Below, in pieces: positions 28,550 to 53,746 of a stretch of 64,000 bases of DNA. Origin of the DNA: Micromonospora profundi. Lineage in GTDB: Bacteria; Actinomycetota; Actinomycetes; Mycobacteriales; Micromonosporaceae. The first letter of the stretch is position 1, and the number at the start of each line of letters is the position of its first letter. The notes beneath the pieces are model-generated. The model saw only the letters and a list, made by a program, of their open reading frames with translations. It was not told where the DNA came from and did no database searches. The translations under genes and the position numbers were made by a program. The DNA is taken from assembly GCF_011927785.1 (NCBI RefSeq), contig NZ_JAATJK010000001.1:1550001-1614000 (forward strand), read 5' to 3'.

Positions 28550-28576
28550 ACGACGCAGGCGGGCGCACGAGGTTCA
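28550..28576 (-). promoter_or_regulatory. SigL-like promoter candidate (15-bp spacer), leaderless
   Basis: On the minus strand TGAACC, 15 bp, CGTCGT lies 7 bp upstream of the GTG at 28542. This places the expected transcription start at the start codon. The spacer is one base shorter than in the seven best sites in this window. Confidence 0.45.
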
Positions 28577-28654
28577 CGGACCCGCGGTAGTCGACATGGC
28601 GGCAGGGAACGACGACCGCCAGTTGCAGTGCTCCAGAACCGATCACTGTCGCGT

Positions 28655-28681
28655 TGAACCGTCGTGACCCCGGCTCGTATT
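28655..28681 (+). promoter_or_regulatory. SigL-like promoter candidate (15-bp spacer)
   Basis: TGAACC, 15 bp, CGTATT, oriented to the LysM-like membrane gene at 28729. Read another way, TTGAAC-18-TATTAC is a weak housekeeping-type promoter over the same bases. Confidence 0.42.
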
Positions 28682-28728
28682 ACAGGACCGGAACGGCAGG
28701 ATAGGGATGGACCGAGGGTACGGAGGCG

Positions 28729-30417
28729 ATGGTGCTGATACGGCGAGCCGTGGCGGCGGCACTGGTGCTGGTCGGGCTCGTCGTGGGTGCCCCAGCGGGG
28801 CAGGCGCGTGCGGCCCCCGCTGAGACCGGCCGGTACTACGTGGTGGGGCCGGCGGTCGACGGCCAGAAGGAGTACCTGTACGCGATTGCCCTGCGCACCC
28901 TCGGTAACGGCAACCGGTACCGGGAGATCGTCGAACTCAACGTGGGGCGGAAACAGCCTGACGGCGCGACGTTCACCGACGGCCTGGTGCTCGAACCAGG
29001 CTGGATGTTGGTGCTGCCCGCGGACGCTAAGGGCCAAGGGGTACGCATCGGCCGGATGCCGACGATCGCCGCTCGATCGCCGCGACCGTCGCCGAGCACG
29101 CTGACGCCGAGCGCCGTTCCGTCGAGGCCGGCTCCCCGGTCGGTCGCGCCGTCCACACCGGCCCCTTCGACGGCTGCCCCGTCCACGGCTGCCCCGCCGC
29201 CACCCTCGGCCCCTGCGGTGGCGGCCACGGACACCGAAACGATTGCCCGGCCGTGGGACGAGCGGGAGGTCACCACTGATCCCGTCAACCCGCTGCTGGT
29301 GCGAGGTGGTGCAGGCGTACTGGCGGTTATCTTCGCGGTGGTGGCGCTGATGCTGCTACGCCGTGCGGGATCACGCCGGGGTGCGCTCGCCCTCACCGAC
29401 GACGGGCCGTGGCCGCCGCAGCGGCACCACACCCCGACCCCCGCCGAGCTCGCCACCGATTCGGGCAACGGTCACTCCCCGCCGCCCGGCGCCCAACAGT
29501 CGTCCACCACAGCGCCGTCCACCGCAGCGCCGTCGTCCGCCGCCTCGCGGCCGTCCGCTGGCGCTCCGCTGTCTCCCGTCGCCCAGCCCTCGTCGTCTGC
29601 CGTCTCGGCGTCCACGGAACAGGAGCGTTCCGAGACCACGGTGCCCGTCATCACGACGCCGACGCCGTCCGCGCCCCCGACCCCGATCCAGAGCGGTACG
29701 CGACCAGGTGAAGCTTCCGTGTCACCGTCCACTCCAGCGCCGGCGACGAATCCCGAGCGTCAGGTGCCGGGCCCCGTGGCGGTGGGGCCATCGAACGAGC
29801 AGAGGCCAACGCAGGCACCGGTGCCGGAGGTGCCACGACCGACGGTGCCGAGTGGCGACGACGTTCCCTACCTGAGCGCCGATCTGGACAGCGAGGCCGG
29901 TCCGATGCGGGTCCGGTTGGCAGGGGTGGCGACGGGCCGTGGTGCAGCGCCCGCGTACGCCTGGCTCGGCGAGCGGGAGCCCGCCCCACCGGCCATCCTC
30001 CCGCTGGTGTTGGGCCACAAGGGTCCGTGGCGGCTGCACGTCGACCTCGGTCGTGCTCCGGACGTACTCACTCTCGTGGGGCCTGTCGGCGCCTGCCGGC
30101 GTGCGGCGGTGCTCCTCGCCCGGAGGCTGCATGCCGCCGGGATCGGTGTGGCGGTGGTCGGCGCGGCGCTCGGCACGCAGGCCCCCGGCGGCAGCCGGGT
30201 CCTGGACGCCCTGCCGCAGCCGCCCACGCCGGAGGAGGAGTTGCCGAAGCCGTACGTCGTGTTCACCGCCGGGTTGGCCGCCGGTGACGCGGCCGGCGCG
30301 CGGAGCCTCGCCGCCACGACGGGCGGACGGTGCGTCCCCGTGGTGATCGGCCCGGTCCCCGGCGGCCGGTGGTCGATTCAGGTCGGGTCGGATGCCGGGG
30401 TGGTGGCGCCGGACTGA
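28729..30417 (+). CDS. Secreted/membrane protein with LysM-like domain, paired with the mycosin-like gene
   Basis: 562 aa. It has a signal peptide (about 1-29, cleavage near GQARA-AP), then a LysM-like domain at about 35-105 (YYVVGPAVDGQKEYLYAIA, LNVGRKQPDG). This domain is clearly homologous to the N-terminus of the mycosin-like protein at 32871. A Pro/Ser/Thr linker, a transmembrane helix at about 190-214 (GVLAVIFAVVALMLLRR), a second disordered linker and a C-terminal domain of about 170 residues follow. It may replace EccE or anchor the mycosin-like protein to the wall. Its last 40 bp overlap the end of the opposite gene. Confidence 0.75.
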   Translation: MVLIRRAVAAALVLVGLVVGAPAGQARAAPAETGRYYVVGPAVDGQKEYLYAIALRTLGNGNRYREIVELNVGRKQPDGATFTDGLVLEPGWMLVLPADAKGQGVRIGRMPTIAARSPRPSPSTLTPSAVPSRPAPRSVAPSTPAPSTAAPSTAAPPPPSAPAVAATDTETIARPWDEREVTTDPVNPLLVRGGAGVLAVIFAVVALMLLRRAGSRRGALALTDDGPWPPQRHHTPTPAELATDSGNGHSPPPGAQQSSTTAPSTAAPSSAASRPSAGAPLSPVAQPSSSAVSASTEQERSETTVPVITTPTPSAPPTPIQSGTRPGEASVSPSTPAPATNPERQVPGPVAVGPSNEQRPTQAPVPEVPRPTVPSGDDVPYLSADLDSEAGPMRVRLAGVATGRGAAPAYAWLGEREPAPPAILPLVLGHKGPWRLHVDLGRAPDVLTLVGPVGACRRAAVLLARRLHAAGIGVAVVGAALGTQAPGGSRVLDALPQPPTPEEELPKPYVVFTAGLAAGDAAGARSLAATTGGRCVPVVIGPVPGGRWSIQVGSDAGVVAPD

Positions 30418-32621
30418 AGCCGGCGCAGCGTGGCTGGCAGCGGCCCGAGGGCTACGCCTGGGCTGCGCTGCCAGGCGCCGTCGCGGGCGTGGTGGACGCG
30501 CCGTACCTGGATCCGGTCGTAGGAGCGGCTGCCCAGGATCAGCTCCACCCCGGCCCGGTGCAGCGCGTCCGCCCGGGTCCGCACCGAGGTGAGCGGGGCG
30601 AGCATCGCGGCGGTGGCGCCGACGTCGACGGTGCGGCTCCGGGGCACCCGCACGTCGACAAGCAGTCGGCCCTGTCGCGCCGGTGGTGGTTGCCGGTACA
30701 GCCGCAGCCAGCCCTTGGGGAGACCGCGTGACCGCACCGGCAGGAGGGCGTACGCCTTCCGAGTGCCGAATTCGGGCCAGCGGCGTACGTCGTTGGGCAG
30801 GCCGGCTGTCGAGCGGGCGGTGGGCGCTGACCGGATCCGCACCGTCGCGTCGTACGCGTCGCCGAGCGGCAGGAGCCAGCCGATGCCCTCCGTGCGGAAC
30901 CCTCCGACGGCGCGTACCCGATCCAGTCGGGCCGCCGGCAGCAGGTAGGTGTCCGAGGTGCCGAGGAGGTACTGCAAGCGGGCCGGCACGTGTGATCGCA
31001 GCGTGGCGACCGCTATCGCGCCGCCCGGCTCGATCCGTACCCGCAGCAGGTCGCAGCCCTCGGGCGCGGACCGGGGGTCGAGGAAGGCGATCAGGAACAG
31101 TTCGGTGCTGGGCATGCCGTCGGCGACCACCTCGGCGGGGTCGCCCGGTGTCCGGACGAACGCCTCGAACGTCTCCGCGTTGACCTGCTGGCCACGGCGC
31201 AGCCACGGCGGACCGTAGTCCGACGCGCGCCTCCGCTCGGTGACGAGCGCGGGGCGGGACAGCGGCGGGGTCAGCACCGCGGTGGGTGCGACGGCGGGCG
31301 GATCTGGCGCAGTCGGTTCCTTCGACGTGCCGATCGTCGTCTGTTTCGTCGGTGCCGCGTCCGTCACGCGGCCGTTCGCCGGCGTTCCGTCCGCAGCCTT
31401 CCGGCCCGCCTCCGGCGAGCCGTCGACGCCCGCCGGCGACCCGCCGGGGTCCTGCGCCGACCTGTCGACGTCTGCCGGCGACCCGCCGACGCCCGGCGAC
31501 GCCGAGCCGACCACGCCGGACGCCGGGTCGTTCGGCGCGGTGACGGCCAAACCAGCGGCGACACCATTCGCGACGGTCAGCGTGACCCGCTCCCGGCTGA
31601 GCCGGGACACCAGCAGCCCGTCGGGGGTGGCGTCGAGGGTCGCCGGGCCGTCGGCGTACCTGGGCCGGTACGCCCGCCACGGCGCGACGGCGCCCGCCGC
31701 GTCGAGCGCACGCAGGTCCCGGTGGTCGTCGATCAGCTCCGCGCGCCCTCCCGGCGGCGGGGTCCAGACCGTGGCGCCGGTCGTCTCGGCCAGCTCGATC
31801 GCCTGCTCGGCGAGCCGGGCCTGCTCGCCGGCATCGGAGGGCCAGGTCAGCCAGAGCCGCAGGTCGGCACCGTAGAGGGGAAGGTCGCCCACGAGGGCGG
31901 CGAGCTGCCGGCCGCTGTGCACGCCCTGGGTACCGCTGTAGTTGCCCACCAGGAAGCCGTCGGCGCGGGCCGTGACGGCGATGGTGACGATGCCCTCGGA
32001 GACCAGGCCGAGCCGGTGCGCGGTGGCCCGACGGGCCACGAAGTCGGCCCGGGTCGCCAGGGCGAGCCCGTCGGCGAGCGGCAGGCGTACGACGCCGGTG
32101 CGGGGGCGAACCAGGCCCTCGTCGAGGGCGAACCAGCCGGGCAGGTGGGTGGCGAGGTCGGGTGGCTGGAGTACGAGCCAGTCCATCGGCTGTCGGGTGA
32201 CCCGGTGCAGCGGCACGGCGTGCAGGGGACCGGCGCTGCTCGCGCTCGCGGTGTCGGCGCCGTTGACCCGGTGGGCGGTGTGCCGGATGTCGGTGCCCTC
32301 CGGGCTGACCAGCACGTCGTGACCGAGCAGCCCGGCCACCTCGGTGAAGAGGTCGGCGTGTCGGGCGCCGTCGTCGGTGAGGATCCGGACGTCGTCGGCG
32401 GCGTCACCGGTGCGCCGTACGAGGTCGGCGATGGATCGGGCGTCGAGCAACCGGTTGGGATCGGTGGGCACCATGAGACGGCCCTTCGGACCTGGGGCGA
32501 GCCACAGGTCGAAGAGTCCGGCGACCCGCCGGTGCCGGCGCGGGTCGAAACGCCGGGTCGCCGGAACCCGGTCGATATCCCTGCTCGCCACCGCCCTGGC
32601 GGTCCGTCCGAGTGCTGTCAC
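30378..32621 (-). CDS. Large hypothetical ESX-locus protein
   Basis: 747 aa from GTG; it is possible that the true start is further in. The first 290 residues are folded (GRLMVPTDPNRLLDARSIADLV; VAGLLGHDVLVSPEGTDI). They share a loose pattern with the Rossmann-like head of the 931-aa ESX protein. Residues of about 350-440 are a low-complexity Gly/Ser/Pro/Asp linker. The C-terminal 300 residues are a second folded region with no motif I recognise. There is no signal peptide or membrane helix. It converges on and overlaps by 40 bp the LysM-like gene. A SigL-type promoter sits upstream at 32754-32781. Confidence 0.68.
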   Translation of the reverse strand: MTALGRTARAVASRDIDRVPATRRFDPRRHRRVAGLFDLWLAPGPKGRLMVPTDPNRLLDARSIADLVRRTGDAADDVRILTDDGARHADLFTEVAGLLGHDVLVSPEGTDIRHTAHRVNGADTASASSAGPLHAVPLHRVTRQPMDWLVLQPPDLATHLPGWFALDEGLVRPRTGVVRLPLADGLALATRADFVARRATAHRLGLVSEGIVTIAVTARADGFLVGNYSGTQGVHSGRQLAALVGDLPLYGADLRLWLTWPSDAGEQARLAEQAIELAETTGATVWTPPPGGRAELIDDHRDLRALDAAGAVAPWRAYRPRYADGPATLDATPDGLLVSRLSRERVTLTVANGVAAGLAVTAPNDPASGVVGSASPGVGGSPADVDRSAQDPGGSPAGVDGSPEAGRKAADGTPANGRVTDAAPTKQTTIGTSKEPTAPDPPAVAPTAVLTPPLSRPALVTERRRASDYGPPWLRRGQQVNAETFEAFVRTPGDPAEVVADGMPSTELFLIAFLDPRSAPEGCDLLRVRIEPGGAIAVATLRSHVPARLQYLLGTSDTYLLPAARLDRVRAVGGFRTEGIGWLLPLGDAYDATVRIRSAPTARSTAGLPNDVRRWPEFGTRKAYALLPVRSRGLPKGWLRLYRQPPPARQGRLLVDVRVPRSRTVDVGATAAMLAPLTSVRTRADALHRAGVELILGSRSYDRIQVRRVHHARDGAWQRSPGVALGPLPATLRRLQSGATTPASDPT

Positions 32622-32753: not shown

Positions 32754-32781
32754 ATGACGAGGTTCGTCGGGGCCTGGTTCA
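32754..32781 (-). promoter_or_regulatory. SigL-type promoter (TGAACC-16-CGTCAT)
   Basis: On the minus strand TGAACC (32776-32781), exactly 16 bp, then CGTCAT, about 130 bp upstream of the 747-aa gene at 32621. It matches six other sites in the window in motif and spacing. The -35 element overlaps the palindrome at 32777-32794. Confidence 0.6.
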
Positions 32782-32794: not shown

Positions 32795-32856
32795 TAACGC
32801 GGCGCGAATCCGCAATAGACGGTGGAACGCGGCGACGTTCATGGCCGTGGTGACTG

Positions 32857-32863
32857 AAGGAGG
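32857..32863 (+). promoter_or_regulatory. Ribosome binding site deciding the mycosin-like start
   Basis: AAGGAGG lies 7 bp before the GTG at 32871. It excludes the longer in-frame ATG at 32841, which has no such site and would put charged residues ahead of the signal peptide. Confidence 0.7.
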
Positions 32864-32870
32864 ACACCCA

Positions 32871-34364
32871 GTGCTGGCGAAGCACCCCATCCTTGCCCGC
32901 CTGCTCGTGGTGGTGATGACCGGTTGCGTGCTGTTGGCCGTACCCCGGCTGTCGGCGGCGAACCCCACACCCGACAACCGGCCGTACGTGAAGTACTACG
33001 TGGTCGCGGCCCAGTTTCAGGGCCAGCCGGAGAATCTGACCGACATCGCGTGGCGGCTGCTCGGCAGCGGCGAACGATCCGATGAGATTTATCACCTCAA
33101 CACCGGACGGGTGCAGCCGGACGGTCTCCGGCTGACCGACCCGGGAGTCCTGACCGCCGGCTGGTATCTGGTGCTGCCCTGGGACGCCGCCGGTGAGGGG
33201 GTCAAGTACGGCCAGCTTCCGCCCGCACCGGCGCCGACACGGACGGCACGTCCCGGAGGCACCACGAAGCCCGGTGGCACTCCGAAGCCCAGCGGCAGCC
33301 CGTCGCCCGCGGCGAGCCCGACCAGGGGCAGCCCCGGACCCGGAGCCACTGGCGGCACCCAGAAGTGCACCGCCGCCGCCGGGTCCAGCAGCCGCTCGGA
33401 CTGGGCGCAGCTGCGGATGGCCGCCGACAGCGCGTGGACCCTTACCCGGGGCAACGGGGTGAAGATCGCGGTGGTCGACACCGGCGTCGACGCGAGCCTC
33501 CAGCAGTTGAGCGGCCGGGTCGCCGTCGGGGCGGACGTGACCGTCGGCAACGGTCGCGGCGACACCGACTGCGTCGGTTCCGGCACCGCGATGGCGGGCA
33601 TCATCGCCGCTGACAGCAGTGTCGACGGCAGCCCGGTCGGGATCGCCCCGGACGCCACGATCCTGCCGGTCCGGATGGTGGGTTCCGGGGCTGCCCGGGC
33701 GGCCGACGCGGCGACCGCCATCGAGGTGGCGGTGAGCGCCGGTGCGTCAGTCGTCGCGCTCGGCTCCCACGTGGACCTGGCCGCTCCCGCAGTGGCGGCC
33801 TCGCTGACCACGGCCCTCAACCACGACGTGCTCGTGGTGGCGGGCGCACCTACCAAACCGGCGCCGCTGCCGTCCCCGGGCACTGGGGCCGCCGGTGGCG
33901 CGCTGCTGCTCACCGGCGGGGTGGGACCGGCCGACCAGTTCGCCGACGAATATCTGGAGGGGACCGTCGAGGTCGTCGCACCTGGTGTCGACGTGGCGAG
34001 CCTCGGCACCGGTGGCAGGGTGACCGGCCGGACCGGTACCGGACTCGCTGTCGCCTTCGTGGCGGGGCAGGCGGCACTGATCCGGGCGGCCGAGCCCGAC
34101 CTCACGGCGGCCCAGGTCAAGGAGCGGATTCTCGGCACCGCCGACCCGCTCGGTGGACAGGACCCGCACCCCGCGTTCGGCGCCGGGATGATCAACCTGG
34201 CGACGTCGGTGGCGGGAGCTCTGGACAACAAGGGCCCGGTGTCCACCGGGCAGGAGGGGCGAGGCTCAGGCGCGGCGATCATCGTCCTGCTGGGCCTGGC
34301 GCTGGTGTGCGGAGTTGGTGTGGTCTTCGGCCTTCGGATGCGCCGACGACGCTTCGCCGGCTGA
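32871..34364 (+). CDS. Mycosin-like subtilase that lacks its catalytic His and Ser (pseudoprotease), with LysM-like domain
   Basis: 497 aa: signal peptide (about 1-30), LysM-like domain (about 36-110), Pro/Gly/Thr linker, subtilase domain (about 165-455) and a C-terminal transmembrane helix with an RMRRRR tail, the mycosin layout. Asp203 is kept (VVDTGVD). The His motif reads DCVGSGTAMAGIIAA, with Ser237 for His. The nucleophile motif reads TGTGLAVAFVAG, with Gly391 for Ser. The oxyanion Asn is not evident. It therefore should not cleave substrates, but mycosins also stabilise the ESX membrane complex, which needs no catalysis. It ends before a strong hairpin. Confidence 0.88.
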   Translation: MLAKHPILARLLVVVMTGCVLLAVPRLSAANPTPDNRPYVKYYVVAAQFQGQPENLTDIAWRLLGSGERSDEIYHLNTGRVQPDGLRLTDPGVLTAGWYLVLPWDAAGEGVKYGQLPPAPAPTRTARPGGTTKPGGTPKPSGSPSPAASPTRGSPGPGATGGTQKCTAAAGSSSRSDWAQLRMAADSAWTLTRGNGVKIAVVDTGVDASLQQLSGRVAVGADVTVGNGRGDTDCVGSGTAMAGIIAADSSVDGSPVGIAPDATILPVRMVGSGAARAADAATAIEVAVSAGASVVALGSHVDLAAPAVAASLTTALNHDVLVVAGAPTKPAPLPSPGTGAAGGALLLTGGVGPADQFADEYLEGTVEVVAPGVDVASLGTGGRVTGRTGTGLAVAFVAGQAALIRAAEPDLTAAQVKERILGTADPLGGQDPHPAFGAGMINLATSVAGALDNKGPVSTGQEGRGSGAAIIVLLGLALVCGVGVVFGLRMRRRRFAG

Positions 34365-34380
34365 TCGTCTCGCCGCAGAC

Positions 34381-34457: not shown

Positions 34458-36059
34458 CTACCTCTGGCTGAACGTCTGCTTCGGGTTGAACACGCAGATC
34501 CAGATCATCATGGGTGCGCCCGGCGCGTGGCCGTCGACGTCCAGGCACTTGTCGGTCGCCCGGTTGAAGAGTGAGCGGCGTCCATTGTTCTCGATCCACT
34601 CCCACTTCTGGGCGGGCACGGCCGTGCAGTGGGCCGACTGCACGGGAGCGCCGTCGCGCTTCTCGCCCCAGGCGACGTCCAGGCAGAGGCCGTTCGCCCG
34701 GATGGTGCCGTCGGACGAGAAGGACCACCACTGGTTCCGTACCTCCTGGCACTTGCGCACAGTGGCCCGAACGCCGTCGCCCTCGCCGCCGCTGAGGCAG
34801 AGTCCGGTCTCCTTGCCGACGATCTGCTTGGCACCGGCGGGTCGGACCGGCGGTGCCGGTGCCTTGGTGGGCTCGTCGGGCCGCTCCGGCTGCGCGGGCG
34901 GCACCGGGGGCCGGGGGTTGGCAGCGGTGGCGGTGGGGGAGGGTGACAGGGACGGTGAACCGCTGGGCTTCGGCGGCACGACCGGCTTGGTGGGTGCCGT
35001 CGGCTTCAGTCGGGAGTCGAGGGCGTAGAACTCGGTGTTCTCCCGGACGGTGCGCAGGAACACCTGGGTCGGGCCGTCGAACTCCCCGCCGGTCTGCCGC
35101 ACTGTGGTGGGCCCGTTGCGGAACGCGGCAAGCGCCAGCAGGTAGGGGTCACCTTCGATGCCGCTCAGCTCGTTGCGCAGCGCGCACATCACGGTGCCGA
35201 CAGCAGGTACGGCCACCTGCGGGTCCCAGACCGACCCTCGGGCCGGGCCGTGTTCCTGCCACACCTCGGGCAGGAACTGCGCGATCCCGCGCTGCCCCTC
35301 GTCGCCGAGCATGTTCGGGTCGAAGCCGGACAGCGCCATCACCTGGCCGGCGACCGCCGCGGGCGGGACCTCGGGACAGGCCGCCCCGGCGCGGACGACG
35401 AGCGGGACGTACTCCTCCGGGACCGCCCTGGGCTGCTGCGGCTTGTTGTTCGGTCGGGGCTCGCCGGCCCCACCGAACGGCACAAGGTCCGCGTAGAAGG
35501 CGGCGTACCCGCTGGCGTGGTCGACATAGTCGACGGCGCTGGACGGGACCCCCTTGGCCTTGCGTACCTCGTCGATGCCGGCGTTGAACGCCGCCAGCGA
35601 GAGCCGCCACGGGTCGCCGTCGATCTTGGTCACCCGGACCTGGCCGCTCAGATCGCACATCTTGTGAGCCAGGGCGAGGATGTTCGCCGCGCTGTCCGAG
35701 CGTCGCGCACCTGGCCACGGCACCCAGGCTTCCCATGCGGCGTCGTCCAGGCCGGCGATGCCCCGGCCGCCGGAGGCGGTCTTCCGGGCGCGACCGTCGA
35801 GCCCTGACTCGGCCATGAGCTGGCCGGCGAGCCGGGCCGGTGTCAGGGCCGGGCAGGACCGGGCGGCGGATCGGATCGTGGTCAGCTGCTCGTCGGTCAC
35901 GGCACGGCCGACGAAGTCGTCGTCCTGAGCCGAGGCGACTCCCCAGCTGACGGTGGCGACGACCGCGGACAGCACCGCCAGGCCGGCGACCACACCGGCG
36001 GCCGCGCGTCGCGAGATCGGGCCCAGTCGGCGCAGGGGGGAGGGCTGATCGGATTCCAC
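34458..36059 (-). CDS. Secreted protein with two lytic-transglycosylase-like domains and a ricin B lectin domain
   Basis: 533 aa with an N-terminal membrane/signal segment (about 20-45). Domain 1 (about 60-190) has the lysozyme-like catalytic motif QLMAESGLDGRA with its Glu. Domain 2 (about 215-350) has QVMALSGFDPNMLG, where that Glu is Leu, so it is probably inactive. A Pro-rich linker leads to a ricin B-type domain (about 405-533; LCLDVAWGE, KCLDVDGHAP) for binding glycans. It likely remodels peptidoglycan. A SigL-type promoter lies at 36092-36119, divergent from the GH64 gene. Confidence 0.85.
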   Translation of the reverse strand: MESDQPSPLRRLGPISRRAAAGVVAGLAVLSAVVATVSWGVASAQDDDFVGRAVTDEQLTTIRSAARSCPALTPARLAGQLMAESGLDGRARKTASGGRGIAGLDDAAWEAWVPWPGARRSDSAANILALAHKMCDLSGQVRVTKIDGDPWRLSLAAFNAGIDEVRKAKGVPSSAVDYVDHASGYAAFYADLVPFGGAGEPRPNNKPQQPRAVPEEYVPLVVRAGAACPEVPPAAVAGQVMALSGFDPNMLGDEGQRGIAQFLPEVWQEHGPARGSVWDPQVAVPAVGTVMCALRNELSGIEGDPYLLALAAFRNGPTTVRQTGGEFDGPTQVFLRTVRENTEFYALDSRLKPTAPTKPVVPPKPSGSPSLSPSPTATAANPRPPVPPAQPERPDEPTKAPAPPVRPAGAKQIVGKETGLCLSGGEGDGVRATVRKCQEVRNQWWSFSSDGTIRANGLCLDVAWGEKRDGAPVQSAHCTAVPAQKWEWIENNGRRSLFNRATDKCLDVDGHAPGAPMMIWICVFNPKQTFSQR

Positions 36060-36091: not shown

Positions 36092-36119
36092 TCGACGGGC
36101 GGGCGATGCCCTCGGTTCA
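36092..36119 (-). promoter_or_regulatory. SigL-type promoter (TGAACC-16-CGTCGA)
   Basis: On the minus strand TGAACC (36114-36119), 16 bp, then CGTCGA, 33 bp upstream of the transglycosylase/ricin gene start at 36059. It is back-to-back with the GH64 promoter in the same intergenic region. Confidence 0.65.
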
Positions 36120-36166: not shown

Positions 36167-36194
36167 TGAACCGAGGGGCATGCCGAGCCGTCAA
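36167..36194 (+). promoter_or_regulatory. SigL-type promoter (TGAACC-16-CGTCAA)
   Basis: TGAACC (36167-36172), 16 bp, CGTCAA (36189-36194), 84 bp before the GH64 ATG at 36279, preceded by an A/T tract. Confidence 0.65.
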
Positions 36195-38731: not shown

Positions 38732-38773
38732 TGTCATCTCTCCTGATGCCTCGTCGCCCCGTGTCCTCGCCAG

Positions 38774-38790
38774 ACCTCCGGCACGGAGGT
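38774..38790. promoter_or_regulatory. Hairpin between sigma and anti-sigma genes
   Basis: ACCTCCG-GCA-CGGAGGT is a perfect 7-bp stem in the 115-bp gap. It contains GGAGG on one arm and may modulate the ratio of sigma to anti-sigma by attenuation or transcript processing. Confidence 0.4.
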
Positions 38791-38846
38791 TGTCGCGTGT
38801 GGCATTCCGCCGTTCGCGGTGCTCTGGGTCCGAGATGGGGGGCGTG

Positions 38847-39910: not shown

Positions 39911-39949
39911 GCCTCCGACGGCGATGACCGAGGCCCACCGGAGGTGTCC

Positions 39950-45154: not shown

Positions 45155-45182
45155 TGAACCGGGGCGTCGGGCGCCCCGTAGA
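45155..45182 (+). promoter_or_regulatory. SigL-type promoter of the T4SS-like operon (TGAACC-16-CGTAGA)
   Basis: TGAACC (45155-45160), 16 bp, CGTAGA (45177-45182), about 110 bp upstream of the DUF6668 gene. GAAAAATCT lies 11 bp upstream of the -35 element. It faces the promoter at 45211-45238, so the two 5' transcripts should overlap by a few bases. Confidence 0.68.
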
Positions 45183-45210: not shown

Positions 45211-45238
45211 ACAACGGGGCCGAGGGCTGATCGGTTCA
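45211..45238 (-). promoter_or_regulatory. SigL-type promoter of the CAP-domain gene (TGAACC-16-CGTTGT)
   Basis: On the minus strand TGAACC (45233-45238), 16 bp, CGTTGT (45211-45216), about 100 bp upstream of the GTG at 45109. Confidence 0.62.
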
Positions 45239-45289
45239 ACCCCGGTCGCGACAGATCAGATCGGGATTCACGAGGAGGAGGTGGATGGC

Positions 45290-46204: not shown

Positions 46205-46570
46205 ATGTCGATCACCAGCCTCGCCCAGTCCGTCGCCGTTCACGTGCTCACCCGGCTGCCGATGGAGCCGGCGCCCGGAGGCGGTGGCGTGGTCAACCCG
46301 ACGCCTGCCGCCCCCACCGCACTCTCCAACCTGGTCAACAAGCTGCTCGGGTTGATCGCCTGGGGCGGTACCGCCGCCGGGGTGGCCGGAGTGCTGATCA
46401 CCGGCACGATGATGGCGATCTCGGTGAAGCGCGGCGAGAGTTCCGAGCACATGTCCCGGCTCGGCCTCGTCCTCGGCGGATGCATCCTCATCGCCGTCGC
46501 CGGTCCGGTCGCGAACTACTTCCTCGGCAGCGGCGGCGGTGGGGGCGCCACCCAGGGTGGAGCCCAGTGA
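46205..46570 (+). CDS. Second VirB2-like membrane protein
   Basis: 121 aa, ATG behind AAGGAG. It shares the layout of the preceding protein: a Pro/Gly-rich N-terminus, two hydrophobic helices (about 44-66 and 80-102), a charged loop with KRGESSEHMSRL (compare NRGTPGEGAEHFRGL upstream) and a Gly-rich tail. The matching loop suggests an old duplication. The stop overlaps the next GTG by 4 bp. Confidence 0.65.
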   Translation: MSITSLAQSVAVHVLTRLPMEPAPGGGGVVNPTPAAPTALSNLVNKLLGLIAWGGTAAGVAGVLITGTMMAISVKRGESSEHMSRLGLVLGGCILIAVAGPVANYFLGSGGGGGATQGGAQ

Positions 46571-47289
46571 CCGGCGCCGACCGAGGGTGGTCCGAGGGCG
46601 GCAAACCGCCCTTCTGGACGGAACGGGGGTGGATCGTCTCGGCGGTCTTCCTCGCCGGAGCGGTACTGCTCTCCGGGATGGTCTGGATCGCCGGGCTGGG
46701 TGGGGACGACAGGTCCAGCCGGAGCGATCGGGCGGCAGCGGAGTCCGCGAGGCAACCGGTCACGCCCTGCCCGGGAACCTCCACTGTGGCGTCGGCCCCG
46801 ACGAAACCACCCACTGACGTGTCCTGGCGGGCCGTCGACATCGGCTACCAGGTGCCGGTTTCGGCCAGCCAGGGACCGCTGCGCATCGAGGGCGGTGTGC
46901 TGCGTTGCTTCGCGCACACTCCGATCGGTGCGGTGCTGGCGGCGCACATCATCCCTGTGAAGTTGGACGGTCCCGACTGGCGGACCGTGGCCGACCTCCA
47001 GGTTCTGCCAGGCCAGGGCCGGGAGGTGTTGACCGCCCGGCTCGACCGGGTGGTCAACAACAACCGCCGGGGCGGGGGCAACTACGCCGGCTACGCGGTC
47101 GACGCGTACACGCCGGAGGCTGCCACCGTGCAGCTGCTCGTGCACGGCGCCGGGTCGTACATGGCGAGCCGGATCGAGCTGCGCTGGGACGACGGCGACT
47201 GGAAGCTCGCGCCGTCGCGGGTCGGCGTGGTGTTCGAGTCGATCGGCACGATCGCCAGCAGCCGTGGCTTCAGTGTGTGGAGGCAGTGA
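46567..47289 (+). CDS. Bitopic membrane protein, VirB8/TrbF-like position
   Basis: 240 aa from GTG. One transmembrane helix at about 21-44 follows a short cytosolic tail; the rest is an extracytoplasmic domain of about 190 residues with mixed strands. The topology and gene order suit the NTF2-like VirB8 component that bridges the inner-membrane complex, but similarity is not obvious at sequence level. Confidence 0.6.
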   Translation: MTGADRGWSEGGKPPFWTERGWIVSAVFLAGAVLLSGMVWIAGLGGDDRSSRSDRAAAESARQPVTPCPGTSTVASAPTKPPTDVSWRAVDIGYQVPVSASQGPLRIEGGVLRCFAHTPIGAVLAAHIIPVKLDGPDWRTVADLQVLPGQGREVLTARLDRVVNNNRRGGGNYAGYAVDAYTPEAATVQLLVHGAGSYMASRIELRWDDGDWKLAPSRVGVVFESIGTIASSRGFSVWRQ

Positions 47290-47292
47290 GAC

Positions 47293-48519
47293 GTGTGTGA
47301 CACGAATCCGCTGAACAGCCTGAAGGACATCTTCGAGCTCATCATCAACCCGGTCGGAATGTTCGTCCGGATCATCGCCAACCTGATCCTCGCCGGGGCG
47401 ATCTCGATCTTCGGTGAGTTGACCGACGAGGTGCCCACCCTCTCGGCGGAGGCGGACGGCGAGCCCTCCATGGCCGTCCCCGGGATGATCAGCGACCAGA
47501 TCGAGTGGCTCATCGTCTACCTGGCGATCGGCTCGATCCTCTTCGCCGCCGCCAAGATGGCGATGGATCGGCGCGCCGAGGCCGGCAAGGTGGCGCTGCG
47601 CGGTTTCCTCCGGGTGATCCTGGTGGCCGGGGCTGGCTCGTGGATAGCGATCAAGGCCGCCGCCATCTCGGACGACTACACCCGGCACCTCTTCTCCACG
47701 GCTTCCCTGAACATCATCAAGAGCGTGCCGTGCATCGACGACGGCTCCGGGATGGAGGCGTTCCTCCTCCTGGTCCTGGCCTTCCTGCTGCTGATCTCGG
47801 CCATCGTGCACGTCCTGCTGCTCTACGTCCGCCTCGGCGTGATGATCCTCCTGCTCGGCACCCTTCCGCTGGCCGCCGCCGCATCCATGACGAGCTGGGG
47901 TGCCGGCTGGTGGCGCAAGCACATCGGCTGGACGGTCGCCTGGCTGCTCTACAAACCGGCGGTCGGCCTGATCATGTACGCCGGCTCGCAGATGATCGCC
48001 CAGGGGAACAACTACGAGAACGGCATCCACAGCCGAATAGCCGGGGTCGGCGTACTGCTGCTGTCGGCGATCGCGCTCCCCGCCCTGCTCAAGCTCGTGG
48101 TCCCGGCCACGGCGGCGCTAGGCACCGGTGACCCGGCCGGCACCGCCATCTCCGCGGCCGGTGGCGCGATCGCCTCAGGTGCGAAGAAGGTCGTCAGTTC
48201 CGCCGCGTCGTCGTCCGGCGGCAGTGTCGGGCCGTCCGGGTCACGGGCACCCAGCGGTGCCTCCGGCCCTGCCGGCAGAGACGGCCAGGGAGGGGGTTCC
48301 GGGAGTGGAGGCCGCGACGGTGCGCCTGGCCGCGACGGCGCTGGCGCACGGCCCGCCCCGAGCCAGGCCGGTGCCGCGACGAGCGCCTCCGGCGCAGCAG
48401 CGGCCGCCGCCGGGCCCGCCGCCGCCGTGATCGGCGCGACGTACCAGGCGGCTCAGGTCGGCCGGCGCATGGTGTCCGGCGCGGTGGAGCGCGCTGACGG
48501 CGACGCGGGCCACAACTGA
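47293..48519 (+). CDS. Polytopic membrane protein, VirB6/TrbL-like
   Basis: 408 aa from GTG. About six to seven hydrophobic helices occupy residues 15-280, including a typical VirB6-like cluster (LLLVLAFLLLISAIVHVLLLYVRLGVMILLL) and WWRKHIGWTVAWLLYKPAVGLIMY. The C-terminal 120 residues are Gly/Ser/Ala-rich and disordered. It is probably the inner channel of the apparatus. Confidence 0.8.
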   Translation: MCDTNPLNSLKDIFELIINPVGMFVRIIANLILAGAISIFGELTDEVPTLSAEADGEPSMAVPGMISDQIEWLIVYLAIGSILFAAAKMAMDRRAEAGKVALRGFLRVILVAGAGSWIAIKAAAISDDYTRHLFSTASLNIIKSVPCIDDGSGMEAFLLLVLAFLLLISAIVHVLLLYVRLGVMILLLGTLPLAAAASMTSWGAGWWRKHIGWTVAWLLYKPAVGLIMYAGSQMIAQGNNYENGIHSRIAGVGVLLLSAIALPALLKLVVPATAALGTGDPAGTAISAAGGAIASGAKKVVSSAASSSGGSVGPSGSRAPSGASGPAGRDGQGGGSGSGGRDGAPGRDGAGARPAPSQAGAATSASGAAAAAAGPAAAVIGATYQAAQVGRRMVSGAVERADGDAGHN

Positions 48520-48568: not shown

Positions 48569-50062
48569 ATGTCGACGGAAGCCGCCATCGAACCGACGTA
48601 CGGGAACTGGCGCCGGCCACGCCGCGCCGGGCTGGGACCGTTCGGCCTGCTCGGCACTGTCGGGGTCTTCGGCGGGCTGGTGGTGGTGCTGCTGGCGTCC
48701 CTGGCATCGCTCCAGGCGGCGATGGTGATCGGTACGCCGTTCGTGCTGGGCCTTGTTCCCATGGCCGTGCGCACCCCGGACGGCCGCAACCTGTATCAGC
48801 TCGTGACGCTGCGGATCGGCTGGTCCCGGCGCCGGGCCCGCGGCGAGCACCTGTACGTCTCGGGGCCGCTGTCGGCCCGTCCCGAGGGTCGGTTCGCCCC
48901 GCCCGGCATGCTCAGCGGGGTGGTTGCCCTGGAAGGGCGGGACGCCTACGACAGGCCGTTCGGGGTGCTGCACCACCGCCGTCGCAACCTCTACACGATC
49001 GTGCTGCGCTGTGAGCCCGACGGCGGGTCGCTTGTCGACCCGGACCAGGTCGACACCTGGGTGGCGCTCTGGGGCGAGTGGCTGTCCCGCCTCGCCCACG
49101 AGCCGGGGCTGCGCGGGGCGTCGGTGGTGGTGGAGACCGCGCCCGACCCGGGCACTCGACTGGCGACCGAGGTGCTTCCCCGGCTCGACGCCGACGCCCC
49201 GCCCGCCGCCCGCGCGGTGATGCAGGAGGTGGTCGACGACTACCCGTCGGCGTCGTCGGAGATGAACTCGTACATCACCCTGACGTACGCGCCTGTGGGT
49301 GGACCTCGCCGCGACCCGGAGGACGTCGTCACCGACCTGGCCATCCGGGTGCCGAGCCTGCTGACCGGGCTTGTCAGCGCAGGCGGTGGGGTGGCCGAGC
49401 CGCTCGACGTCGAGCAGATCGCCGAGGTGGTCCGAGTCGCGTACGACCCGGCGTGCGCCGCCGACGTGCTCAGCGTGCGCGCGGAGCACGGCCGCACCGG
49501 GTTGGAGTGGATCGACGCGGGGCCGGTGGCGGCCATGGAGACGGTCGACGCGTACCAGCATGACTCCGGGGTGTCGCGGACCTGGCTGCTCACCCTGGCA
49601 CCTCGGGGCACGGTCCGCTCCAGTGTGCTGCGGACCATGCTTGACGCCTCCGCCGGCACCCGCCGCAAGCGCGTGGCGCTGCTCTACCGGCCGATCGACC
49701 CGGCCACCTCCGCCCGGATCGTCGAGGCGGACCGGCGGACCGCCCAGTTCATGGCGACCTCGGGTCGCGGCATGGTGCAGGCGCGGGCCGCCGCCGAGGT
49801 ACGCGCCGCCGAACAGGCCGCCTCCGAGGAGGCCACCGGCGCCGGGCTCGTCGAGTTCTCCCTGATGCTCACCATCACCGTCGACCGCCCCGACCAGCTC
49901 GACGACGCGTCGGTGGTGGTGCGCAACCTGACCGGTGCCGCCCGGATCTCCATGCGGCCGGCCAACCGGATGCAGGCCGCCGCGTTCAGCTGCACCCTGC
50001 CGACCGGAATTCTGCCCTGGGAACAGACCATGCTGCCGCACGAACTCCAGGAGGCGATGTGA
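48569..50062 (+). CDS. SCO6880 family protein of the T4SS-like apparatus
   Basis: 497 aa. An N-terminal PrgI/VirB3-like pair of helices (about 22-65) precedes a large cytosolic region that corresponds to the N-terminal part of VirB4 ATPases, here split from the ATPase domain encoded next. Motifs such as HEPGLRGASVVVET and SSEMNSYITLTY are typical of the family. It overlaps the ATPase gene by 4 bp, so the two products probably work as one VirB4-like unit. Confidence 0.85.
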   Translation: MSTEAAIEPTYGNWRRPRRAGLGPFGLLGTVGVFGGLVVVLLASLASLQAAMVIGTPFVLGLVPMAVRTPDGRNLYQLVTLRIGWSRRRARGEHLYVSGPLSARPEGRFAPPGMLSGVVALEGRDAYDRPFGVLHHRRRNLYTIVLRCEPDGGSLVDPDQVDTWVALWGEWLSRLAHEPGLRGASVVVETAPDPGTRLATEVLPRLDADAPPAARAVMQEVVDDYPSASSEMNSYITLTYAPVGGPRRDPEDVVTDLAIRVPSLLTGLVSAGGGVAEPLDVEQIAEVVRVAYDPACAADVLSVRAEHGRTGLEWIDAGPVAAMETVDAYQHDSGVSRTWLLTLAPRGTVRSSVLRTMLDASAGTRRKRVALLYRPIDPATSARIVEADRRTAQFMATSGRGMVQARAAAEVRAAEQAASEEATGAGLVEFSLMLTITVDRPDQLDDASVVVRNLTGAARISMRPANRMQAAAFSCTLPTGILPWEQTMLPHELQEAM

Positions 50063-51762
50063 GTACCCAACTCGGGGCCGGCTGGCCGGTCGGGCACGCC
50101 GGGGCGTCCACGGCGCTCACGGGCCTGGTCGGTGAGCCGGACGACGAGGCCCCGAAGCCGGCCAAGGCCACGCCACCGAAGCCCCGCCGGGATGTCCCGG
50201 TCTCGGCACGGGGCTGGGACGGACCGGGCGGCGGCAAGGTCGGCTACCTCGACGCCCCGACGATGTGGCGGGCCACCACCGTGCAGGCGTGCGGGCTCTG
50301 GCCATTTTCGGCGGGCTCCGGCGCGCCGATGTCGGGGGTGCCGCTCGGTCAGCATCTCTTCACCGGCGCGACGGTGTGCGGCGACCCGATCTCGTGGTTC
50401 ACCCGGGCGAAGTACATCTCCAACCCGTCGCTGTTCATGCTCGGCATGCCCGGCCTGGGCAAGTCGACCCTGATCAACCGGATGGCGGTGGGGCTGGCCG
50501 CCACCGGTGTGGTGCCGCTGGTCCTCGGCGACCTGAAGCCTGACTACGCAGACACGGTCCGCGCCCTCGGTGGGCAGGTCATCTCGATCGGTCGCGGGGT
50601 CGGTGGCATAAACGTGCTGGACCCGGGAGCGATGGGGCTTGCCGCCGAACGGATCGGTGGCAAGGCCGGTCAGGCGCTGGCGGCCGAGACCCACGGCCGG
50701 GTGCTCAACATGGTGGCGGCGCTGCTGACAATCGTGCGGGGCCGGCCCCTGGACGATCACGAGCAGGCGGTGCTCTCCGCCTGCCTGCGGCACCTGCGGG
50801 AACGTACCCCGAACGGTCGTGCCCCGGTCCTTCCGGATCTGCTGCGGGTGTTGGAGGAGGGCCCGGACCGGGTCCGGGCGGTGACCCTGGACCGGGGGCA
50901 GGAGACCCGGTACCGCGACGCGGTGGACCCGCTGCACCGCTCGCTGCTCGGCATCCTCGACGGCGCGCTCGGTGACACGTTCGGCTCGGCCACCTCGACC
51001 CGGATCAACCTGGACGCCCCCGCCGTCTGCATCGACATCTCCCGGATCGGCGAGTCGGACACCCAGCTCACCGCGGCGGCGATGCTCGCCGCCTGGTCTG
51101 ACGGGCTGGGTACGGTCGCAGCCGCGCACGCCCTGGCCGACGCCGGCATGGCACCGCGCCGCTGGTTCTTCACGATCCTTGACGAGTTGTGGCGCCCGCT
51201 GCGGGCGGCCTCCGGCATCGTCGACCGGATCGACGCGCTGACCCGGCTCAACCGTTCACTCGGCCTCGGCGACGCGAAGATCACCCACACCCTCAAGGAC
51301 GCCGAGGCACTCGGCACCGATGCCGACCGGGCCAAGGCGCGCGGTTTCGTGGAGCGGGCCGGGATCGTCGCCTGCGCCGGACTGCCGGCCGCCGAGATGA
51401 CCGAGCTGGGCCGGGTGATCGGCCTGTCCCGGCGAGAGATCGAGCTGGTCTCCTCCTGGTCGTCCCCGCCGGGCTGGGCGAGCAGCGGCAGCAACGAGGA
51501 GCCACCCGGCCGGGGCCGGTTCCTGATCAAGGTGGGTGGTCGGCCCGGCATCCCGATCCGGGTGTCCATCACCGACACCGAGCGCCGCCTGCACGACACC
51601 AACCTGCGCTGGGTGCAGAACGGGTACGCCGAACAGCAGGCCGCCGAGCGGGCGGCTGCCCGCAAGGCGGTATTCGAGGCCGAGGCCGAGTTGGGCAACC
51701 TGGCCACCCGACCGGAGTACGCCCAGGTGAGCGACGAAGCCGGCCGGAGGTTTCAGGCGTGA
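50059..51762 (+). CDS. VirB4-like ATPase of the T4SS-like apparatus
   Basis: 567 aa from GTG. P-loop GMPGLGKST (129-137), Walker B FTILDELWRPL (about 375) and a RecA-like core with the VirB4 C-terminal pattern (SRREIELVSSW). It energises assembly or transport. Its start and stop overlap both neighbours by 4 bp. Confidence 0.88.
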   Translation: MSTQLGAGWPVGHAGASTALTGLVGEPDDEAPKPAKATPPKPRRDVPVSARGWDGPGGGKVGYLDAPTMWRATTVQACGLWPFSAGSGAPMSGVPLGQHLFTGATVCGDPISWFTRAKYISNPSLFMLGMPGLGKSTLINRMAVGLAATGVVPLVLGDLKPDYADTVRALGGQVISIGRGVGGINVLDPGAMGLAAERIGGKAGQALAAETHGRVLNMVAALLTIVRGRPLDDHEQAVLSACLRHLRERTPNGRAPVLPDLLRVLEEGPDRVRAVTLDRGQETRYRDAVDPLHRSLLGILDGALGDTFGSATSTRINLDAPAVCIDISRIGESDTQLTAAAMLAAWSDGLGTVAAAHALADAGMAPRRWFFTILDELWRPLRAASGIVDRIDALTRLNRSLGLGDAKITHTLKDAEALGTDADRAKARGFVERAGIVACAGLPAAEMTELGRVIGLSRREIELVSSWSSPPGWASSGSNEEPPGRGRFLIKVGGRPGIPIRVSITDTERRLHDTNLRWVQNGYAEQQAAERAAARKAVFEAEAELGNLATRPEYAQVSDEAGRRFQA

Positions 51763-53522
51763 GCGGAAAGATGTCCTCCGGTCCGCCACGCGGGGCGGAC
51801 CTGTTCTTCTGGGCCTTCAGCCTGGTGGTCCTCGCCAACCTCGGGCTCTTCATCGTCGCCTGGACCGGCGGCACGCTCGGCGCCGGCGTGACCGGGCACG
51901 GCTGGCGGCCGCCGCCGTTCACAATGGGCTCGTACTTTGCCCTGGTCTCCGGCGACCTCGACACGCTCTGGCCCGGCGCGTCCCCGTACGCGGTCTACGG
52001 CGGGATGGTCGTGGTGGCCGCGCTCCTCGTCGTGCCGGTAGTGGTGGCCGGGCGCTGGCTGCTCGACAGGCGCAACCAGGGCGTCGGGCTGGCCCGCCGC
52101 AGCGACCTCGCGTCGTTGGCCCCGGCCGGCATCGCCGCCCGCGCCCGGGAACTGCGTCCCTCGCTGGCCGGGATGAAGCACCTGCCGCCGGACGAGACCG
52201 GCAACCTGCTCGGCGACCTGTCCCCGAACGGCCCGGAGCTGCGCTCCTCCTACGAGGACGTGGAGCTGGACCTGATGGCGCCCCGGGCCGGCAAATCCAC
52301 GGGCATCGCCATACCCCGGGTGCTGCGTGCCCGCGGCGCGGTCCTGCTGACGTCAAACAAGTCCGACGTGTACGCGGTGACCCGCGCCGAACGGGAACGC
52401 GTCGGCACCGTCTGGACGTTCGACCCGCAGGGCATCGCGCACGCGCCTCGGGAGATGTGGTGGGACATCCTCGCCGACTGCGTCACGATCGAGGGCGCGC
52501 GGCGACTGGCCGGGCACTTCGTCGCCTCGGTCAACGACGACAGCTCGAAGAAGGACTTCTGGATCTCGGCGGCGCAGAACACCCTGACCGCGCTCTTCCT
52601 GGCCGCCGCCCGGGGGCGGGCCTCGGTCACCGATCTGCTCGGCTGGCTGGCCGACCCGGCCGACCGCACTCCGATCGACCTGCTGCGCGACGCGAACATG
52701 CAGGCGATGGCCGAGCAGTTGCAGGGCACCGTACGCGGGGCCGTGGAGACCCGCGACGGCATCTACGAGACCGCCCGGCAGTGTGTGGCGTGCCTGCTCG
52801 ACCCGGACATCCTGGCGTGGGTAAGCCCGGACCCGTACCTGCCGCAGTTCCGTCCGGACCGGCACGTGCTCGGCCGGGACACCCTCTACCTGCTCTCCAA
52901 GGACGGCGGCGGCTCCGCCGCAGGGGTGATCGCCGGACTCGCCGACGCGACGCTGCGGGCCGGGGTGGTCGCCGCCGAGCGGATGGGCGGGCGGTTGGAC
53001 CCGCCGATGACGGCGGTGCTCGACGAGGCGGCGAACGTGTGCCGGATCTCGGACCTGCCCGACCTCTACTCGCACCTCGGCTCGCGCGGGATCAACGTGG
53101 TGACCCTGTTGCAGAGCTATCGGCAGGGGTCCCGGGTCTGGGGCGAGGCGGGCATGGACGCGATGTGGGGCGCGGCCACAATCAAGCTGCTCGGCGCGGG
53201 GCTCGACGACGCCGACTTCGTGGAGAAGATCTCCAAGCTGGTCGGTCAGCACGACGTGAGCACCGTCAGCGTCTCGCGCAGCCGGGACGGCTCGTCGCGG
53301 TCGGTCTCGTACCGGCAGGAGCACGTCCTGCCTGCCGACCGGATCCGCGCCCTGCCGAAGGGGACAGCCCTGTTGCTGGCCACCGGCGTCCGACCGGCGG
53401 TGATCAAATTGCGCCCCTGGTACAAGGAGCCGGACGCGGGACGGATCTCGGCGCTCGCCAAGCAGGAGGTCGCGGCCATTACCGAGCGGGCCACCGCCAA
53501 GCTCGGCACGGGGTGGTCGTAG
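51759..53522 (+). CDS. Type IV coupling protein, VirD4/TraG-like
   Basis: 587 aa from a GTG overlapping the ATPase stop. Two N-terminal transmembrane helices (about 14-36 and 73-98), P-loop APRAGKST (174-181), VLLTSNKSDVYAVT, Walker B MTAVLDEAANVC and LQSYRQGSRVWGE are the usual T4CP/TcpA-type motifs. It would deliver substrates (DNA or protein) to the channel. No relaxase gene is present in the window, so a protein substrate is possible. Confidence 0.9.
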   Translation: MSGKMSSGPPRGADLFFWAFSLVVLANLGLFIVAWTGGTLGAGVTGHGWRPPPFTMGSYFALVSGDLDTLWPGASPYAVYGGMVVVAALLVVPVVVAGRWLLDRRNQGVGLARRSDLASLAPAGIAARARELRPSLAGMKHLPPDETGNLLGDLSPNGPELRSSYEDVELDLMAPRAGKSTGIAIPRVLRARGAVLLTSNKSDVYAVTRAERERVGTVWTFDPQGIAHAPREMWWDILADCVTIEGARRLAGHFVASVNDDSSKKDFWISAAQNTLTALFLAAARGRASVTDLLGWLADPADRTPIDLLRDANMQAMAEQLQGTVRGAVETRDGIYETARQCVACLLDPDILAWVSPDPYLPQFRPDRHVLGRDTLYLLSKDGGGSAAGVIAGLADATLRAGVVAAERMGGRLDPPMTAVLDEAANVCRISDLPDLYSHLGSRGINVVTLLQSYRQGSRVWGEAGMDAMWGAATIKLLGAGLDDADFVEKISKLVGQHDVSTVSVSRSRDGSSRSVSYRQEHVLPADRIRALPKGTALLLATGVRPAVIKLRPWYKEPDAGRISALAKQEVAAITERATAKLGTGWS

Positions 53523-53718
53523 GGATTCGGCAGCCTCATCGGGACGCGATCAAATCTCCCGTTACGAGGTGCACCGCGCACTGTCCTCCACAGTAGTGCT
53601 GGCGACAGAGGGCGTGCGACGAGCACGGTGCCGCCGCGCTCGCGTGCAGGCCGTGGTCTGTTCTGGGTACGGCTGGTCACGGTCGGCGGGCCATCCAAAA
53701 AAGATCTCCGATCCGGAC

Positions 53719-53746
53719 TGAACCGGCGCGCCGGGTGCCGCGTAGA
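53719..53746 (+). promoter_or_regulatory. SigL-type promoter (TGAACC-16-CGTAGA)
   Basis: TGAACC (53719-53724), 16 bp, CGTAGA (53741-53746), 38 bp before the ATG at 53785. AAAAAAGATCT (53697-53707) lies 11 bp upstream. The whole 50-bp block is similar to the one at 45130-45182. Confidence 0.68.

Follow-up and report, generated by a model that had tools for sequence, protein, structure and literature searches.

The window considered here is a stretch of 64,000 nucleotides (64 kb) from Micromonospora profundi (contig NZ_JAATJK010000001.1, C1:1550001-1614000 of the 6.93-Mb genome). It encodes an operon of the type IV secretion system (T4SS) kind, genes of an adjoining ESX locus for type VII secretion (T7SS), several wall- or glucan-directed proteins, two disordered proteins without family and, among them, an extracytoplasmic function (ECF) sigma factor similar to Mycobacterium tuberculosis SigL, followed by an RslA-like anti-sigma factor (Table 1). 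Seven sites of the form TGAACC-N16-CGT stand in front of these genes and, judged from their sequence context, are very probably the promoters of one regulon read by the local sigma factor at 38162 (sigma 38162).

The seven sites had been noticed in an earlier reading of the letters alone (the sequence-only reading); all of them are present and intergenic, and only the starts of the minus-strand sites had been placed 3 nt off. They fall within 32757-53743 of the window, the whole of which is expected to contain 0.44 sites, and seven or more occurred in 0/100 shuffles. Across the whole genome 62 sites were found, compared with nine for the reversed control pattern, and for seven sites per 21 kb the genome-wide density gives a Poisson probability of 1.4e-9. 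By a codon-model gene call, 28 of the 62 sites are intergenic and 34 intragenic; as the window has 7/7 intergenic sites and the rest of the genome 21/55, the motif is not equally common at random positions. The sites with a 15-bp spacer also exist. The one at 28655 is found in this genome and its three closest relatives, while the one at 28576 (minus strand) belongs to a DUF6461 gene for which no match was found in the compared relatives. TGAACT-15-CGTCCT occurs at 25351 before a LuxR gene, where it overlaps the called start (25357); the compared relatives contain LuxR matches of 25-32% only, none with a site. Another 15-bp site at 36507 lies inside the GH64 gene, so that its recurrence in relatives may be due to the coding sequence.

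Sigma 38162 has SigL of M. tuberculosis (6dv9) as its best match in the PDB with 99.6 bits, the next match reaching 54.4 bits. With NF007227, which we take to be the SigL model, it scores 180.4 bits, under the cut-off of 202. Orthologs show 68-84% identity in the eight relatives compared. The putative anti-sigma factor at 38847 carries H12...H34xxxC38xxC41 and one transmembrane (TM) segment (HxxxCxxC and TM read by eye), and it matches the anti-sigma model NF052375 below its cut-off. The proposal of a SigL/RslA-like pair at 38162-39851 is thereby borne out, both by the 6dv9 match and by the zinc-finger partner. The genome encodes eight SigL-like sigma factors above 120 bits, sigma 38162 among them. 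TGAACC-16-CGTA sites adjoin the genes of two others (5588934 before the ECF gene at 5588390; 4259517 near the ECF gene at 4258127) and perhaps reflect autoregulation of these genes. In three relatives another SigL-like sigma factor (about 50%) is encoded downstream of the T4SS (G036, L074:11567-12172; G059; G001).

Table 1. Promoter sites and genes of the locus, and the second regulon (window positions unless a contig is given).
Feature	Position	Strand	Evidence or remark
Promoter CGTCATG	32757-32781	-	before 747-aa ESX-locus gene
Promoter CGTCGAG	36095-36119	-	before SLT-ricinB gene
Promoter CGTCAAC	36167-36191	+	before GH64, sigma gene further downstream (probable autoregulation)
Promoter CGTAGGG	39883-39907	+	before 305-aa disordered gene
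Promoter CGTAGAG	45155-45179	+	T4SS-like operon
Promoter CGTTGTG	45214-45238	-	before SLT-CAP gene
Promoter CGTAGAG	53719-53743	+	before 476-aa disordered gene
15-bp-spacer promoter CGTATTA	28655-28678	+	before 562-aa gene
SigL-like ECF sigma factor, GTG start	38162-38731	+	Pfam Sigma70_r2/r4
RslA-like anti-sigma factor	38847-39851	+	zf-HC2 E=7.7e-6; one TM; C-terminal domain beyond membrane
First T4SS operon gene, DUF6668-like	45281-45832	+	below cut-off; degenerate P-loop by eye
VirB2-like pilin subunit 1, 98 aa	45829-46125	+	T4SS_pilin E=0.0023, below cut-off
VirB2-like pilin subunit 2, 121 aa	46205-46570	+	TrbC/VIRB2 E=0.025, below cut-off
Single-TM protein, VirB8-like position, start uncertain	46480-47289	+	sequence only
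Multi-TM VirB6-like protein	47293-48519	+	sequence; position as CmdD/SCO6881 in the available literature
SCO6880 family protein	48569-50062	+	NF042935 491.9 bits, cut-off 60
VirB4-like ATPase	50059-51762	+	NF045971/NF045975 about 34 bits, below cut-offs
VirD4/TraG-like coupling ATPase (TraD)	51759-53522	+	PF12696 111 bits, PF02534; both above cut-off
Secreted/membrane protein, 562 aa, shares N-terminal domain with mycosin	28729-30417	+	tblastn cross-hits; no Pfam
747-aa ESX-locus protein, no family	30378-32621	-	relatives 55-67% over aligned part
Mycosin-like protease, divergent, no own site here	32841-34364	+	TIGR03921 160.8 bits, below cut-off
Secreted protein with SLT-like and ricin-B lectin domains	34458-36059	-	ricin-B 4.5e-21; SLT 6e-4, below cut-off
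GH64 beta-1,3-glucanase + CBM6	36279-37940	+	Pfam
SLT + CAP wall protein, VirB1-like place	43853-45109	-	
Candidate cargo, 305 aa, no family	39944-40861	+	basic tail ..PGRRLARG
Candidate cargo, 476 aa, no family	53785-55215	+	basic tail ..SRRAGKAPARR
Second SigL-like regulon, TGAACC-16-CGTGT	G000 C1:6150811-6164293 (L031, L032)		T7SS locus; conserved in 13 genomes

Conservation of the sites and coupling to the sigma gene

Syntenic loci were compared from 10 genomes of the same genus (two in part) and from 20 named records that extend as far as Phytohabitans, Virgisporangium, Jidongwangia and Actinoplanes; most of the stretches compared end before the ESX core. After removal of four repeats there are 27 loci of the window type, namely 11 same-genus stretches, our own included, and 16 of the 20 named records. 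If the spacer of TGAACC-Nk-CGT is left free between 8 and 25, these loci contain 119 matches at k=16 and 1-26 matches at each other k, the 119 matches not being independent because the loci are related. Twelve T4SS loci of the sigma-less kind contain one match at k=16.

The first T4SS gene has a site within 400 nt in 23/26 loci (0.04 expected), and the T4SS sites are retained in Phytohabitans, Virgisporangium and Jidongwangia, with the mycosin gene directly behind a site in the latter two. The 747-aa gene is preceded by a site in 18 of 19 loci, in one of the 18 as TGAACT. Seven genomes including this one possess the SLT-CAP promoter (one as TGAACT-15), and the site behind TraD (53719) recurs in the same location in M. 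antibiotica and the three closest relatives. The SLT-ricinB class of 21 also takes in proteins that match in the lectin domain only. A comparison of the intergenic regions in relatives had been suggested with the first description of the sites; it reveals a core that keeps its register throughout the Micromonosporaceae and whose occurrence is coupled to the sigma gene.

This coupling is seen at several levels. An ortholog of sigma 38162 (E<=1e-65) is present in 11 of 61 genomes of the genus, the same 11 that have a T4SS TraD of at least 70%, and is missing from the other 17 genomes, in which the TraD matches are more distant only. Among T4SS loci without a SigL-like sigma gene in the stretch, 0/11 have a site in the 4 kb upstream, and the idea that the motif belongs to the T4SS and not to the sigma factor was rejected on this ground. 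A site lies upstream of the sigma gene or of the GH64-sigma pair in 19/20 loci (sigma factor at least 67%, upstream sequence present), in 13 of them 186-478 nt before the sigma gene and in six about 2 kb upstream before GH64, so autoregulation of sigma 38162 is likely.

The -11 base and a second SigL-like regulon

The -35 element of M. tuberculosis SigL is TGAACC, with CGT 16 bp on. The sequence-only reading had equated the motif of the window with the published SigL consensus, and CGT agrees with it. According to the available part of the source, SigL has T-12 G-11 as its -10 element and is most selective for the G at -11, which is read by D60, position -12 being read by H54 (PMC6372665). In the window-type loci the base after CGT, i.e., position -11, is C in 71, A in 30, T in 17 and G in one of 119 sites, and the sole G sits inside an anti-sigma gene. 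Counting only the sites before eight core gene classes together with nine T4SS sites (n=95; omitted are three SLT-ricinB picks with a 15-bp spacer that lie inside genes, and a mycosin pick with TGAACT), G is found in 0/95. With G at -11 in 1/119 sites, identity with the SigL consensus fails. A division in which C at -11 would mark envelope genes and A the T4SS and cargo genes was rejected as well, as C stands before some cargo-type genes in relatives.

A second cluster of seven sites, five of them intergenic, is located at 6150811-6176412 of the genome. These sites precede two Lipoprotein_15 genes, a gene for a 105-aa protein that is WXG100-like by eye, which is followed by a gene for an EccC-type FtsK protein, and genes for a 100-aa protein and a T7SS_signal protein; another SigL-like sigma factor (sig2, 6161803) and a zf-HC2 protein are encoded nearby. 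In this second regulon, G occupies -11 in 63 of 69 sites, the remaining six reading CGTCCA and being intragenic in this genome. The EccC protein of the locus (EccC2, E<=1e-150) is present in 20 of 121 genomes of the genus, and one of these, G054, with its match in two pieces, is not in the locus comparison. The 13 genomes with EccC2 of at least 84% all hold sig2 (at least 84%; 10 in the stretch, three elsewhere), and in these a site stands in front of 61 of 63 matches to second-regulon genes, a count in which some lipoprotein matches represent one paralog twice. In six genomes with EccC2 of 41-56% the best sig2 match is 52-54%; four of these six genomes without a close sig2 have a site at 1/16 gene matches (in G018), and the other two are uninformative, being without gene matches. 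The EccC2 homolog of G099:C23, G058:C13 and G054:C92 shows an in-frame TGA or a match in two pieces.

In an alignment with SigL, the residues at the positions of H54 and D60 are N or H and A or E in sigma 38162, and H and N in sig2. This loop alignment is suggestive only. We read the contrast at -11 as that of two paralogous sigma factors that kept one -35 element and split the -10 element. The claim of a single envelope programme has to be divided: the shared promoter joins the T4SS-like operon with the SLT/CAP, SLT-lectin and GH64 genes and those of the ESX-locus protein and both disordered proteins as proposed, and the programme was drawn too narrowly, with eight SigL-like sigma factors in the genome and a second regulon at another T7SS locus.

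The secretion operon and the genes that share its promoter

By its gene content the operon is a SCO6880-type T4SS with a VirD4-like ATPase and two VirB2-like subunits, the latter recognized by weak family matches. Subunit 1 has 29 matches in other loci, including four duplicate records and one that is actually subunit 2. The two pilin-like subunits resemble each other (33-42% between subunit 1 of the window and 19 subunit-2 sequences). The 38 members of the two subunit families include, at E<=0.1, 19 with a match to TrbC/VIRB2 (best 1.3e-5), six with one to T4SS_pilin and five with one to an unrelated cytochrome bd family. The proteins in VirB8- and VirB6-like position gave no family match and are assigned by position and topology. 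PDB sequence and profile searches gave no credible match (listed E>=0.19) for the SCO6880 protein, the VirB4-like and VirD4-like proteins, the pilins and one cargo family, and PHROGs gave no match at E<=0.01 for any of nine proteins.

Among the wall-directed genes, a homolog of the SLT part of the SLT-CAP protein follows TraD on the same strand in the 74% relatives, in which it would thus belong to the operon. A GntR gene and an ABC transporter cassette at 40987-43252, between the orphan gene and the SLT-CAP gene, are not at that place in the compared relatives and look like an insertion for this reason. In a 74% relative, a site is followed by the gene of a secreted thaumatin-like and ricin-B protein (L073:9318-10568; 7p22, 224 bits), and such a protein stands behind a site in relatives without GH64 in the stretch. 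Beta-1,3-glucan is bound by GH64 as well as by thaumatin-like proteins; their target may therefore be a fungal or plant wall, which is a guess. Elsewhere in the window, the ESX locus encodes a beta-helix fused to an EccA/SpoVK-like AAA ATPase (21709-24975), and GH43/AbfB and GH5/ricin-B enzymes lie just past the locus (59314-62271).

The two disordered proteins of the window belong to a set of strain-variable orphan genes behind regulon sites, which comprises 26 genes in 16 families and may include a few ordinary genes. Excluded from it were 11 site-gene pairs, in 10 of which the chosen gene overlapped the initial genes of the T4SS operon in a different frame while one was truncated, along with sites that have a different spacer or lack a gene. 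None of nine cargo-type proteins scanned matches Pfam at E<=0.05, and homologs are found only in Micromonospora or in unnamed or metagenome entries (partly from the best 8000 candidates). Hydrophobicity at the N-terminus is lower than in the background (medians of 0.03 and 0.91), and the final 15 residues carry a median net charge of 3.5 vs 0 in 459 background genes; counted per family, the basic tails of the 16 families differ from the same background with p=6e-4. The tail idea was formed on the proteins of the window and the ten genomes and tested on 13 proteins from later loci, which are not fully independent because they represent nine families, one of them already seen. A tail charge of at least 2 is found in 9/13 of these vs 134/459 background genes (p=0.004), and of at least 3 in 6/13 vs 82/459 (p=0.02). 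Acidic tails occur in three of the 16 orphan families, and an acidic end is also seen in one homolog, labelled partial, of the 476-aa protein. One orphan cargo-type family of relatives (L075:1661-2464, P0005-P0010) has invariant HE...HE and HNES motifs, with the HE...HE core in 6/6 sequences, and is perhaps a metalloenzyme.

A proposed sigma switch for secretion and wall genes, and its rivals

The following mechanism is proposed. The anti-sigma factor 38847, a zinc-finger membrane protein, would hold sigma 38162 inactive until an envelope signal arrives. The released sigma factor would read TGAACC-N16-CGT with C, A or T as the next base and, in most cases, a purine after it, and transcribe its own gene, here via GH64, and the chromosomal SCO6880-type T4SS operon with its two pilin-like subunits. 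By the same release, the wall-opening SLT/CAP enzymes, the secreted glucanase, the lectin protein, the ESX-locus protein and the variable orphan genes would be expressed together. At the second T7SS locus, sig2 would read TGAACC-N16-CGTGT. The sites with their register and conservation, the coupling to the sigma gene and the difference at -11 can be read directly from the sequences; we infer that this sigma factor binds the sites, that the anti-sigma factor controls it in response to a signal, that the genes are expressed together, and whatever part the orphan proteins play.

Several observations weigh against this reading. The same genome encodes seven other SigL-like sigma factors, so cross-reading is possible. 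The exact T4SS site is absent in 3/26 loci (M. marina, M. humi and Actinoplanes), and Actinoplanes has a 15-bp-spacer site and no sigma gene in its short stretch. The nearby sigma factor is only 52% alike in Virgisporangium and 48% in Jidongwangia, and in the latter no site precedes its gene. A site is also absent upstream of the sigma gene in M. okii and of the 747-aa gene in G007, and several 74% relatives do not have those of the SLT-ricinB and SLT-CAP genes and the one behind TraD. As to the two specificities, the alignment of the H54/D60 loop is gapless by choice and might be shifted, and G018, without a close sig2, retains one CGTGAA site.

That the motif cluster is a compositional accident is hardly conceivable: background matches do exist, as the intragenic sites of the genome illustrate, but the excess in the window over expectation, the peak at a spacing of 16, the conserved register and the coupling to the sigma gene lead us to regard accident as refuted. 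The promoters could be real and yet be read mainly by one or more of the other SigL-like sigma factors with overlapping specificity, sigma 38162 being a minor partner. The seven paralogs have 40-50% identity, and two of them have a TGAACC-16-CGTA site nearby. We nevertheless consider this improbable, as sigma 38162 co-occurs exactly with the locus, a site precedes its own gene in nearly all loci, and T4SS loci without it have no sites, though paralogs are presumably present in those genomes. Regulation by sigma 38162 thus remains the preferred reading of the sites.

The function of the apparatus and of the orphan proteins is less settled. The T4SS might be a conjugation apparatus that was captured by the chromosome and transfers DNA, the co-regulated orphan proteins not being secreted, a possibility of some substance that nevertheless stays below even. 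The SCO6880/VirB4/VirD4-like set resembles conjugation modules, cmd genes are related to SLP2 transfer genes in the available part of the Streptomyces study (PMC2782261), and the sigma-less T4SS loci of the genus may be mobile. No relaxase was found among the genes Pfam-scanned at 26.1-57.9 kb, relaxase models not having been sought in the remaining genome; the locus order is kept together with ESX-side genes in several species. In S. coelicolor, cmd mutants were changed in sporulation and not in transfer of an SLP2-derived plasmid (PMC2782261). A serious alternative, only somewhat short of even, is that the basic-tailed orphan proteins are substrates of the adjoining ESX/T7SS, or are cytoplasmic, e.g., nucleic-acid-binding disordered proteins. 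The ESX locus is next to them, and one of its genes is under the same promoter. Disordered tails of basic character are generally known to bind nucleic acids as well. On the other side, the Pfam scan of the nine orphan proteins, without any match, included the T7SS families. We tentatively propose the orphan proteins behind the shared promoter as T4SS cargo, a bold reading that is less likely than not. It is equally doubtful that the locus encodes a dedicated protein-exporting, pilus-bearing SCO6880-type T4SS of Gram-positive soil bacteria that its own SigL-like sigma factor switches on along with wall hydrolases and secreted proteins directed at beta-glucan, and that exports lineage-specific disordered effectors recognized by their basic C-terminal tails.

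No published description of this regulon was found in a literature search, most subscription papers being outside its reach. The closest solved ECF sigma factor is that of the SigL/RslA pair of M. tuberculosis, which resembles the pair described here in a zinc-finger membrane anti-sigma factor, CGT at -14 to -12, autoregulation (probable here) and a TGAACC -35 element. It differs at -11, which is C, A or T here and G in SigL, and in the residues aligned to H54 and D60. The targets are secretion and wall genes here, whereas the available text on SigL names the pks10 and Rv1139c promoters (PMC6372665). SigM of M. tuberculosis is likewise an ECF sigma factor that activates a type VII secretion locus, ESX-4; it is a different sigma factor, and no T4SS is mentioned for the SigM system in the available part of that paper (PMC10117145).

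As for the apparatus, the Streptomyces relatives cmdABCDEF (SCO4126-4131) and SCO6871-6884 share the chromosomal SCO6880 family protein, the putative VirB4-like ATPase and the membrane partners. In the available part of the study of cmdABCDEF and SCO6878/6880/6881, cmd mutants were altered in aerial growth and sporulation with plasmid transfer unaltered, mutants of SCO6878 or SCO6881 sporulated without defect, and no sigma/anti-sigma control is mentioned (PMC2782261). Compared with these systems as described there, the window operon additionally has the VirD4-like ATPase, the two putative VirB2-like subunits and the co-regulated orphan genes. Protein export by a Gram-positive T4SS was reported for the 89K system of Streptococcus suis, which in contrast belongs to a pathogenicity island and exports the protease SspA-1, as far as the available text describes it (PMC12857230). 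The C-terminal signals of effectors of the Agrobacterium VirB/VirD4 system are Arg-rich and positively charged, according to the accessible part of the source (PMC10025392); no sequence relation to them is shown by the proteins described here, the tails of which are basic only statistically.

Whether T4SSs of Gram-positive bacteria evolved as dedicated effector translocators is called a long-standing question in the available part of a 2025 review (PMC12857230). In the locus analysed here, one dedicated sigma switch appears to serve a T4SS, wall enzymes, parts of an ESX locus and fast-changing possible cargo. The paralogous ECF sigma factors, which share the -35 element and part at -11, also in relatives, may be taken as a natural experiment on the division of regulons, and the solved SigL-promoter complex would be a guide for studying this -11 split. 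The locus offers a concrete test system in a cultivable genus, with the apparatus, the switch and the candidate cargo under one promoter and each of them removable, which would help to test whether Gram-positive bacteria export proteins by such T4SS machines.

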